A stretch of DNA of 33,897 nucleotides from Vicinamibacteraceae bacterium (GTDB lineage: Bacteria > Acidobacteriota > Vicinamibacteria > Marinacidobacterales > Marinacidobacteraceae): contig JAAXGQ010000140.1 of NCBI GenBank assembly GCA_012271265.1, positions 1 through 33,897 on the forward strand. The letters run 5' to 3'. Under the pieces are notes generated by a model. That model worked only from the letters and a program-made list of their open reading frames with translations, had not been told where the DNA came from and did no database searches. The position numbers and the translations under genes were made by a program. This document shows positions 22,656-33,897 of the stretch, piece by piece (the stretch's first letter is position 1; each line of letters begins with the position of its first letter).

Positions 22656-23246
22656 ACCGGTGTCCTCACCGGTCGACATGGAGCGCCGGTGTCCCCACCG
22701 GCCACCGCCGCAGCCGGGCATGGTCCGTGGCCGTCCCGGCCCACGGTTCGTCGGTACGGTGCCGCGGTCGGCACCAGACTGCCCAAGGGACCGACGGCGC
22801 GCCGCAGGCCGGCGAGGACGCCGGCGCTCCATGGGACCGGCGCTCCAGACGTCAGGGCGCGCCAGTCTCGGAGCGCCGGTGTCCCCACCGGCCACCTCCC
22901 CATGTTGCGCCGGCATCCTCGCCGGCCACCCCCCATGGAGCGCCGGCGTCCTCGCCGGCCATCGCCGCAGGCGGGCATGGTCCGTGGGCCTCCCGGCCCA
23001 CGGTTCGTCGGTACGGTGGCGCGGTCGGCACGAAACGGCCCAAGGGAACGACGGTGCGCCGCAGGCCGGCGAGGACGCCGGCGCTCCAGGGGGCCGGCGC
23101 TCCAGACGTCAGGGCGCGCCAGTCCCCGAGCGCCGGTGTCCCCACCGGCCACCTCCCCAGGAGCGCCGGCATCCTCGCCGGCCACCCCCCATGGAGCGCC
23201 GGCGTCCTCGCCGGCCACCGCCGCAACCGGGCATGGTCCGTGGGCC
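22656..23246 (-). repeat. Tandem array (257-bp period) of 151-bp structured elements, opposite orientation to the 13.7-kb array
   Basis: Full copies 22680-22830 and 22937-23087 (151 bp each), third copy truncated at 23246. Reverse complement aligns along its length with the element at 13698. Confidence 0.92.
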
Positions 23247-29958: not shown

Positions 29959-30744
29959 ATGGCCGACCGCGCCGACCGCTACGAGCTCTACGAAGCCGCC
30001 GTGCAGGACGCGCCGGGGGACGCGGAGTTCCTCGACGACGAGTTCTTCCGGCGCCGGGGGCGGCGGGCCGACTCGTTCCGCGAGGATTTCTGCGGGACCG
30101 CGGCTCTCGCCTGCGAGTTCGCCCTGCGCCGACCCGGGAGCCGGGTCTACGCGATCGATCGGGATCCGGTCCCGCTGGAGTGGGGGCGGGAGCGTCATCT
30201 GCCGCGCCTCGACCGCGAAGCGCGGGAGCATGTCCGGCTCGTCGAGTCCGATGTACTCGACTGGGAAGGGCCGGCGGTGGACCTGATCGCCGCGATGAAT
30301 TTCAGTTACTGGATCTTCGAGACGCGGGAGATGCTGCGGAGGTACTTCGAGCAGGCGCGCCGGGCGCTGCTGCCGGACGGGCTGTTCTTTCTTGACGCCT
30401 ACGGGGGCTCGGACTGTCACGAAACGAAGGAGTACCCCCGCCGGGAGCAGGGCTTCGTCTTTGTCTGGGACCAGGTCTCCTACGACCCCATCACCGCCCA
30501 TATGGAGTGCGCGATGCACTTCGACCTCCCCGACGGAAGCCGGCTGGCGAACGCCTTCCGCTACGCGTGGCGATTCTGGTCGCTGCCCGAGATCCGGGAA
30601 TTGCTGGAGGAGGCGGGCTTCCGCCGGACGTTCGTCCTCTGGGAAGGCGCCGACGAGAACGGCGACGGCAACGGCGTCTTCGAGGAGGTCGAGGCCGGCT
30701 CCCCGGACCCCACCTGGATCGCCTACCTGGTGAGCGAGCCCTGA
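29959..30744 (+). CDS. Class I SAM-dependent methyltransferase
   Basis: REDFCGTAALACEFALRRPGSRVYAIDRDPVPLEWG; AMNFSYWIFETREMLRRYFEQARRALLPDGLFFLDAYGG. Confidence 0.8.
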   Translation: MADRADRYELYEAAVQDAPGDAEFLDDEFFRRRGRRADSFREDFCGTAALACEFALRRPGSRVYAIDRDPVPLEWGRERHLPRLDREAREHVRLVESDVLDWEGPAVDLIAAMNFSYWIFETREMLRRYFEQARRALLPDGLFFLDAYGGSDCHETKEYPRREQGFVFVWDQVSYDPITAHMECAMHFDLPDGSRLANAFRYAWRFWSLPEIRELLEEAGFRRTFVLWEGADENGDGNGVFEEVEAGSPDPTWIAYLVSEP

Positions 30745-30800: not shown

Positions 30801-33755
30801 ATGAGGCTCGACGAGGGCCTGAAGCGCCATTTCGGATTCTCCGGCTTCCGGCCGCTCCAGAAGGAAGCCGTCGCGGCGCTTCTCGCCGGACGCGACGCCG
30901 TGGTCCTGCTGCCGACCGGCGGGGGGAAATCCCTCTGCTACCAGTTGCCGGCGCTGCTGCTGCCGGGAACCACTCTCGTGGTCTCACCGCTCATCGCGCT
31001 GATGAAGGACCAGGTGGACGCTCTTCGCGCCCGCGGCGTCGCGGCCCGGTTCCTGAACAGCTCGCTCGGCCTCGCGGAGAGCCGCCAGGTCTGGAGCGAA
31101 GCCTTGCGGGGCGATCTGAAACTGCTCTACGTCGCTCCGGAACGCATCGCAGCATCCGGCTTCGACCTGCTTCTCGAACGCCTGGAGGTGAGCCTGGTAG
31201 CGGTGGACGAAGCCCACTGCATCTCCCAGTGGGGCCACGAGTTCCGTCCCGACTACCGCACTCTTGGCGGGCTCCGGGAAGCGCTGCCCGAGGCGCCCTT
31301 CGCCGCGCTGACGGCGACTGCCACCCGAGGCGTGCGCCGCGACATCGCCAACCAGTTGCGGCTGAAGCGGCCGGAATTCTTCGTGGCCAGTTTCGACCGG
31401 CCGAACCTCACCTACGAAGTCGTCCCGAAGCGGGGCGCCCTCGAGACCCTGGTCCGGCTGCTGCGGAAGCAGGAAGGAGAGTCCGCGCTCATCTACTGCC
31501 TCTCCCGAAAGCAGACGGAAACCCTCGCGGCACAACTCAGAGGGGCCGGGTTCCGCGCCCGGCCTTACCACGCCGGTCTCGATGCGGCGCGCCGGCGCGA
31601 AGAGCAGGACCGGTTCCGCTCGGGCGAGATCCAGGTGATCACGGCCACCGTCGCGTTCGGGATGGGGATCGACATGCCCCGGCTCCGCCTCGTGGCGCAT
31701 CACAGCCTCCCCAAGTCGGTCGAGAGCTACTTTCAGGAGACCGGCCGGGCCGGCCGGGACGGCGGGCCGAGCCGCTGCGTCCTGTTCTTCAGCCATGGCG
31801 ACCGGATCGCGCAGGAGCACTTCTTCCGCGAGCTCCAGGATCCCCGCGAGCGGCGGGCGGCGGAGGCCCGCCTCGCCCGGATGGTGGAGTACTGCAACCT
31901 CACCTCCTGCCGGCGCCGTTTCCTGCTGGAGTACTTCGCCGACCCCGCCGCAGCGGGGACAGGCAACTGCGGCGGCTGTGACAACTGTCTCGACGGGCGG
32001 AAGACCGATGACCGTGATCTCGAGGAGTACGACGCCACCGACATCTCGCTGAAGTTCCTCTCCGCCGTGGTCCGTACCGGGCAGCGCTTCGGGACGCGGC
32101 ACATCGTCGCGGTGTTGCGCGGCTCCCAGGCGAAGAAGATCCTCGATCGCGGCCACGACCGGCTGAGCGTCCACGGGATCGCCAGTGATGCTTCGGCCGA
32201 CGAGCTGGCCGGGCTCGCCGAGGCGCTCCTGCAGCGAGGCCTCCTGGTCCGCCGGGGCAGCGAGTTTCCGACCCTCGGGCTCTCCCCCGCCGGCCGCTCG
32301 TTTCTCCGAACCCGCACCCCCCTGATGCTGCAGCGGCCCCGCGCTCTCCGGTCCCCGGCGTCGCCCGAGGGAGGCGCCACGAAGCTGGACGACGATCTGC
32401 TCCGTGCGTTGAAGGACCTTCGCCGCAGGATCGCGGCCGAACGGGGCGTTCCTGCTTACATTGTGTTTCCTGACCGCACCCTGACAGCCATGGCGGCGGC
32501 CGAGCCGCGCGATGACACGGAGTTCCTGGACCTGCCCGGCGTCGGCCCGGCGAAGCTGGAGTCCTACGGCCCAGCCTTCCTGGAAGAAATCGCCAAGTTC
32601 CACAGCGACGCTCCGCCGCAGGCGCAAGGGGCGAAATCCGAGCCGGGGCCACCGGCAGCGACCGGGCCCGCGGAGGCCGGGAAGCCGAAGCAGAATGGCG
32701 CCGGCATGAAGAAGTCCGCTGCCGAGCGCGTTCGTTCCCGGCTCGCCCGCGGTCTTTCCCTGGAGCAGATCGCCGCCGAACTCGGGATCCAGCCGGGGAC
32801 GGTGATCGGCCACATCACACAACTCGTGGCAGGGACGGAACCCTGCCGCCTGGATCACCTCCTCCCCGGCGCCGACCGCACCGCTCGGATCCGCGACGGT
32901 CTGGACCGGCTCGGAATCTGGCCGCTGCGTCCGGTCAAGGAGCTTCTCGGCGACGAGGTCTCGTACGATGAGATCCGGCTGGTGCGGGCAGCGATGGTCA
33001 TGGAGCGGCGGGGCGCGGGGGCCAAGGCGGCGCGCGACGGTTCCGGCTACCGTCAGACCGCCGCGCTCCTCGTCATCGGGAATGAGCTCCTCGCCGGAAA
33101 GGTGGCCGACACGAACACCGGGAAGCTGGCCCGGCTGCTTCGCGAGAAGGGGATCGAGCTGCGCCGGGTGGTGACGATCCGGGACAGCGTCGAACGGATC
33201 GCCGCCGAAACCGCCGCCCTTGCCGAGCGCCACGACGTGGTGTTCACGTCCGGCGGTATCGGCGGCACCCACGACGACGTGACGATGGAGGGCGTCGCCC
33301 GGGCCTTCGGAACGAGCGTCGTCCACCACCCGCGCTTTCTCACGGCGATCCGGGAACGCGGACTCGAAAACAGCCATCGCGGCCTCGCTCGCGTGCCCGC
33401 CGGCTGCGAGCTGCGCGGGGGAACGCCCGGCGGCTCCTGGCCGGTGCCGGTCATGAGGAATGTGTGGATCCTGCCCGGGCTGCCCTCGGCCTTCGACGAC
33501 AAGATTGAAGTGCTCGCGGGCTGCCTTCCCGAGGGTCCGGCGTTCCACACCGACTTCGAATTCGTGCCCGGACCGGAGGAAGCCCTGATCCCCCTCCTCG
33601 ACCGCGTCGTTGCAGCGCACCCTGAGGTGCAGATCGGCTCCTATCCTGGACCCGAAGGGACCCGCATCACGTTCGACGGTGACGACGGCGGCGCCGTGAA
33701 CCGGGCGGCAGCGGCGTTCCGCCACGCGCTCCAAGGCGCGTCCACCGGCGTCTGA
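30801..33755 (+). CDS. recQ: RecQ helicase (helicase, RQC, HRDC, HTH_40) continuing in frame into a CinA/MoCF-like domain
   Basis: LLPTGGGKSLCYQLPAL, DEAHCISQWGHEFRPDY, CRRRFLLEYFADP...CGGCDNC, HRDC LDLPGVGPAKLESYG, HTH_40 GLSLEQIAAELGIQPGTVIGHI. Then LLVIGNELLAGKVADTNTGKLARLL...FTSGGIGGTHDDVTMEGVARAFG with no intervening stop. Confidence 0.9.
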   Translation: MRLDEGLKRHFGFSGFRPLQKEAVAALLAGRDAVVLLPTGGGKSLCYQLPALLLPGTTLVVSPLIALMKDQVDALRARGVAARFLNSSLGLAESRQVWSEALRGDLKLLYVAPERIAASGFDLLLERLEVSLVAVDEAHCISQWGHEFRPDYRTLGGLREALPEAPFAALTATATRGVRRDIANQLRLKRPEFFVASFDRPNLTYEVVPKRGALETLVRLLRKQEGESALIYCLSRKQTETLAAQLRGAGFRARPYHAGLDAARRREEQDRFRSGEIQVITATVAFGMGIDMPRLRLVAHHSLPKSVESYFQETGRAGRDGGPSRCVLFFSHGDRIAQEHFFRELQDPRERRAAEARLARMVEYCNLTSCRRRFLLEYFADPAAAGTGNCGGCDNCLDGRKTDDRDLEEYDATDISLKFLSAVVRTGQRFGTRHIVAVLRGSQAKKILDRGHDRLSVHGIASDASADELAGLAEALLQRGLLVRRGSEFPTLGLSPAGRSFLRTRTPLMLQRPRALRSPASPEGGATKLDDDLLRALKDLRRRIAAERGVPAYIVFPDRTLTAMAAAEPRDDTEFLDLPGVGPAKLESYGPAFLEEIAKFHSDAPPQAQGAKSEPGPPAATGPAEAGKPKQNGAGMKKSAAERVRSRLARGLSLEQIAAELGIQPGTVIGHITQLVAGTEPCRLDHLLPGADRTARIRDGLDRLGIWPLRPVKELLGDEVSYDEIRLVRAAMVMERRGAGAKAARDGSGYRQTAALLVIGNELLAGKVADTNTGKLARLLREKGIELRRVVTIRDSVERIAAETAALAERHDVVFTSGGIGGTHDDVTMEGVARAFGTSVVHHPRFLTAIRERGLENSHRGLARVPAGCELRGGTPGGSWPVPVMRNVWILPGLPSAFDDKIEVLAGCLPEGPAFHTDFEFVPGPEEALIPLLDRVVAAHPEVQIGSYPGPEGTRITFDGDDGGAVNRAAAAFRHALQGASTGV

Positions 33756-33765
33756 CCGCTCCCAT

Positions 33766-33897
33766 GGAGCGCCGGCGTCCTCACCGGCCTACGCCGCACC
33801 GTTGGTCCCTTACGGAAGTCTCCTGCCGACAGCCCCGACGTCCCGACCGACCGTGGGTCCGGAGCCACGGACCATGCCCGCCTACGGCGGTGGCCGG
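33766..33897 (+). repeat. Diverged copy of the 151-bp structured element, cut by window end
   Basis: GGAGCGCCGGCGTCCTCACCGGCCTACGCCGCACC...CCATGCCCGCCTACGGCGGTGGCCGG aligns with the element at 13698; right hairpin begins at the expected offset within 1 bp. Confidence 0.85.

Follow-up and report, generated by a model that had tools for sequence, protein, structure and literature searches.

At the end of the window (the whole stretch of 33,897 nucleotides analysed here), the reading frame of a RecQ helicase continues into a MoCF domain, which raises the question of whether one protein or two are encoded there, and what the second enzyme might be. The window represents the entire contig C261 of a 3.4-Mb genome (G000) of an uncultured member of the Acidobacteriota, which is 88 % complete and distributed over 274 contigs.

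Reading frame, domains and junction

The RecQ gene with its COG1058/FLAD1-type MoCF part constitutes a single open frame of 984 codons on the plus strand, extending from the ATG at 30801 to the TGA at 33755, and the Pfam and NCBIfam models recognise both families within it, all Pfam domains being complete and above their gathering cut-offs. The N-terminal half comprises a DEAD/DEAH helicase domain (PF00270, residues 17–178, 30849–31334), with Walker A TGGGKS at 39 and DEAH at 136, followed by Helicase_C (PF00271, residues 214–321, 31440–31763), with motif VI QETGRAGRDG at 312, the zinc-binding RecQ_Zn domain (PF16124, residues 333–397, 31797–31991; Cys 370, 390, 393 and 396), RQC (PF09382, residues 408–515, 32022–32345), HRDC (PF00570, residues 531–597, 32391–32591) and HTH_40 (PF14493, residues 650–729, 32748–32987), all on the plus strand. 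The helicase signatures are all present, and this half passes the NCBIfam recQ equivalog TIGR01389 (651.3 bits, cut-off 640.2). On the same strand, it is followed by MoCF_biosynth (PF00994, E 6e-26, residues 756–905, 33066–33515), which carries the catalytic-type residues E762, D795 and D826, and by FLAD1_M (PF24102, residues 915–979, 33543–33737). An earlier note on this DNA had described a complete RecQ and a MoCF domain in one frame, and both statements are borne out by the open frame and the Pfam domains, although the note did not name FLAD1_M.

The strand opposite the fused gene also holds an open frame, of 916 codons, and long open frames come cheaply in a GC-rich genome, so the frame by itself carries little weight. 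The case for fusion is therefore built on the domain matches, the homologous RecQ C-terminus and a second fused genome (described below); the homologous domains and the second genome rule out a spurious frame as the sole cause.

About 20 residues separate the end of RecQ from the start of MoCF (HTH_40 ends at residue 729 and MoCF begins at 756), and no stop occurs in the RecQ frame as far as the MoCF end. The 20-codon linker (32994–33053, plus strand) shows GC contents of 0.75/0.65/0.90 at the three codon positions, a coding-like pattern. The separate RecQs of relatives read SYEEIRIVRAS followed by a short tail and a stop, located a few to some 20 codons past the position matching the junction, whereas the fused RecQ reads SYDEIRLVRAA at the matching C-terminus and continues directly into MoCF. 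In the AlphaFold model of the fused protein, the mean pLDDT is 83; values exceed 90 in the greater part of the two enzymes and drop under 50 in the junction region (residues 701–744); as the pTM is just 0.54, no claim is made on the relative packing of the two parts.

The junction could also be read as two overlapping or coupled genes, RecQ ending near 33000 and MoCF starting from the ATG at 32994 or 33000, with the intervening stop removed by an assembly or sequencing error. These are the only in-frame ATGs at the junction, both overlapping the RecQ end, and the window derives from a single metagenome-assembled contig, in which an indel or base error is possible. Against two genes stand the uninterrupted frame, the coding-like linker and the missing Shine–Dalgarno sequence: in agreement with the earlier note, which saw no clear one at the junction, no match of at least four bases precedes either ATG. 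The RecQ start at 30801 likewise has no such match, and internal initiation at 32994 or 33000 could yield a free MoCF protein.

Affinity of the C-terminal part

The C-terminal part scores 94.3 bits against PF00994 (cut-off 26.6) and 37.8 bits against FLAD1_M (cut-off 27). Its closest solved structure, and its best solved relative over the whole length, is human FAD synthase isoform 2 (8RON, 2.5e-32), to the first domain of which it is akin, with Thermus thermophilus CinA (TtCinA, 4CT8) behind at 3.3e-17. FLAD1 is likewise a natural fusion of the same domain, but with a PAPS-reductase-like FAD synthase domain in place of RecQ. According to Pfam, the fused protein contains neither this FAD synthase domain nor an NMN deamidase domain, and it does not pass the moaB model for MoaB/MogA (20 bits vs 222.4).

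In the alignment, E762, D795, D826 and E926 of the fused protein correspond to E12, D45, D76 and E187 of TtCinA, which are located at the catalytic metal, E156 holding the terminal ribose (PMC4246079); the equivalent residues of Agrobacterium tumefaciens COG1058 were tested by mutagenesis (PMC3680494). The GXEX3G motif and the metal-site Glu/Asp/Asp are shared with the stand-alone COG1058 proteins (A. tumefaciens COG1058 and yeast FPY1), and E762, D795 and D826 are invariant in the family alignment A1. The fused part differs from the stand-alone proteins in its helicase partner, in Ala897 at the position of TtCinA E156, and in the motif GG(L/I)GPX3D, which reads GGIGGTHDD, with Gly for Pro (other family members have Ala). 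The pyrophosphatases of COG1058 depend on Co2+ and K+ and hydrolyse ADP-ribose, to which the stand-alone form tested adds Ap2A and FAD as substrates; the domain has been described by itself and in fusions with NMN deamidase or FAD synthase (PMC3680494). From the conserved residues we infer that the C-terminal part is an active pyrophosphatase, perhaps one that prefers substrates other than ADP-ribose.

The earlier note had instead taken this part for a CinA lacking its deamidase, with a possible link to competence or damage inducibility. A truncated CinA joined to RecQ, coupling a competence or damage response to repair, would be consistent with the homology of the MoCF domain to the N-terminal half of CinA (TIGR00200, 68.8 bits), with the matching CinA structures and with the shared catalytic residues, but it is very improbable: the scores against the CinA models (69–74 bits) lie far below the cut-offs of 243 and 379, FLAD1_M is present, the human FAD synthase is the closer structure, and the counterpart of TtCinA E156 is Ala. 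Moreover, the cell's CinA is a different protein from the fused domain: contig C105 of the same genome carries a full-length CinA gene (its deamidase half was recognised from the translation). On these sequence comparisons, the C-terminal part is to be placed with the stand-alone COG1058 proteins and not with a deamidase-less CinA, and the proposed competence or damage link therefore does not transfer to it. The C105 gene (L006, 424–2352) is a 642-codon frame, the first part of which overlaps an upstream PgpA-like gene in another frame, and its start is uncertain.

Relatives, a second fused gene and the contig end

All ten family genomes, including that of the window, have this MoCF, the other nine being 68–74 % identical. 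In eight of them (G001–G008), MoCF has a gene to itself, which follows a SAM methyltransferase gene at a distance of 46 nt to 1.8 kb (counted to the MoCF core); in the window, this same methyltransferase gene (29959–30744, plus strand, start codon provisional) lies directly upstream of the fused gene. The methyltransferase–MoCF linkage is seen across the family, and it recurs with intervening genes in a second family of the order. A RecQ with HTH_40 (TIGR01389 type) is located at another site in G003–G006 and, split over two contig pieces, in G008; these separate RecQs and the G008 fragment resemble the fused protein in having every RecQ domain and motif as well as HTH_40 at the C-terminus, whereas the fused gene has no stop after HTH_40 and gains a C-terminal enzyme domain. 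A close RecQ was not found in G001, G002 or G007.

The tenth genome, G009, assembled separately, 66 % complete and from another genus of the family, encodes a RecQ–MoCF protein in a single 926-aa frame (L058, 6240–9020, minus strand), its domains confirmed by Pfam. It shares with the window's gene the two families, their order and the single frame, but differs in the absence of HTH_40, in a linker of about 60 rather than 20 residues and in its neighbours, with an 81-aa gene downstream; a methyltransferase of the window's kind was not found in this 66 %-complete genome. The absent HTH_40 points to either a deletion within the fused gene or an independent joining. No ATG, GTG or TTG occurs between HRDC and the MoCF core in G009, so its MoCF would be made only within the fusion, unless translation started inside the first strand of MoCF itself.

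As two separately assembled genomes have different junctions, assembly error is unlikely to be the cause of both. Two separate genes at the window's junction are thus quite unlikely, even though in eight of the ten family genomes the two genes lie apart or RecQ was not found. The idea, raised in the earlier note against a fusion, that relatives consistently encode two genes holds for these eight and is broken by the fused G009.

At the level of the phylum, a MoCF relative (E ≤ 1e-18) is present in 46 out of 396 genomes, and only the window's is fused among the matches listed, which do not include G009. In the GTDB scan, RecQ was found upstream in frame at none of 80 MoCF loci among the matches listed; the same holds for fusion to RecQ in some 130 distinct further MoCF relatives (genomes counted twice removed), again among the matches listed, so that rarer fusions may have escaped, and no MoCF lay near RecQ at the 24 RecQ loci checked in the class. 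A literature search for RecQ joined to CinA, COG1058 or a molybdopterin protein returned no report of such a fusion. With two fused genes among ten family genomes and none among these relatives, the earlier impression that the architecture is not standard is upheld. The longest open frames around MoCF relatives (L104, L115, L130, L140, L147, L160, L165 and L178), considered as candidates for other fusions, were rejected, as they gave no RecQ match and their upstream parts mostly had no coding GC pattern.

In the MoCF tree, G000 falls outside the clade formed by G009 and the other g2 genomes, and the RecQ tree has the same branching order with support of 89/86; both read (G000,(G009, rest)), in agreement with the genus grouping. 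A clade of G000 and G009 is rejected by the MoCF data (AU p 0.01) but not by the RecQ data (p 0.23). Judged from these sequences, a single fusion that predates the divergence of g1 and g2 and was later split, or else two fusions, are both possible. Nei–Gojobori estimates of dN/dS in both fused genes amount to about 0.2 (MoCF) and about 0.4 (RecQ), rough values given the high dS; for MoCF, dN of about 0.2 against dS of about 0.9 resembles the stand-alone MoCF genes. Both halves thus look to be under purifying selection.

A dispersed repeat of roughly 138 bp closes the window with one of its copies (33761–33897, plus strand). The final 131 bp of the window match the beginning of contig C149 exactly, whereas other full-length copies of the repeat are at most 88 % alike. 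The two contigs therefore probably adjoin each other, a placement based on the overlap alone; C149 could be mis-binned. Directly behind the repeat copy on C149 lies what is left of another MoCF gene, a C-terminal remnant with a broken frame (L004, 329–593), and beyond it an 81-aa gene and a protein that we take, from its motif, to be GWxTD-like. The two pieces of the remnant match the G009 MoCF at 83 % and 87 % versus 60 % and 77 % for the window's, and the 81-aa gene shares 91 % identity with its counterpart after the G009 fusion; a second MoCF of the G009 type was therefore probably once present in this genome and is now broken. The fused MoCF is the only intact copy of its kind found in the genome. 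The repeat itself has 220 matches in the 3.4-Mb genome, its full-length copies being mostly 80–88 % identical and often tandem, with further sites at 22698–23225 of the window and at 1–323 of C149; its end motif, GAGCGCCGGCGTCCTCACCGGC, is also found inverted, and several contigs terminate in or near it.

These observations bear on whether the joint matters. The protein may be made while only one half, or an internally started free MoCF, is of use, the joint being a passing accident. The sporadic occurrence of the fusion (two of ten in the family, none elsewhere among the matches listed) would fit this reading, as would the two trees, in both of which the fused genes occupy the two deepest branches beside unfused relatives, a pattern compatible with repeated gain or loss. 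However, both halves retain catalytic residues and signs of purifying selection, and apart from a broken remnant the genome yielded no second copy of this MoCF; any work that is needed must then fall to the fused one. An inconsequential joint is accordingly regarded as rather unlikely.

Proposed activities and significance of the fusion

The RecQ–MoCF gene appears to be a real fusion and, as far as the searches reach, a new architecture of two known families. Probably, it is a genuine gene fusion giving one polypeptide, predicted to be a bifunctional helicase–pyrophosphatase. A recQ of the HTH_40 type would have arrived between the methyltransferase gene and the stand-alone COG1058 gene normally next to it, with loss of the RecQ stop and of the usual MoCF start. 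The resulting polypeptide of roughly 105 kDa would combine an ordinary 3'–5' RecQ helicase with a putative metal-dependent nucleotide pyrophosphatase of the FLAD1/FPY1 kind, connected by a presumably flexible tether, and the latter may cleave dinucleotides that contain ADP (FAD, ADP-ribose or the like), releasing AMP and the remaining half. In the simplest view of the tethering, two housekeeping activities would be co-produced; a possible benefit is that ADP-ribose or dinucleotides are removed where repair takes place. Since most relatives have two genes, the fusion is dispensable for either function.

The further proposal, that RecQ brings its own ADP-ribose or dinucleotide pyrophosphatase to DNA and so ties cofactor clearance to recombination or repair, is speculative and judged unlikely; the sporadic occurrence of the fusion calls for caution over any functional coupling.

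Natural fusions provide clues to functional links, and RecQ would be a third kind of COG1058 partner, beside NMN deamidase and FAD synthase. If the fusion were a mere accident, it would still illustrate clearly how genes become joined, with unfused relatives available for comparison. Through a RecQ–COG1058 fusion, a single protein would suffice to test the proposed link, ADP-ribose scavenging in the course of DNA repair.
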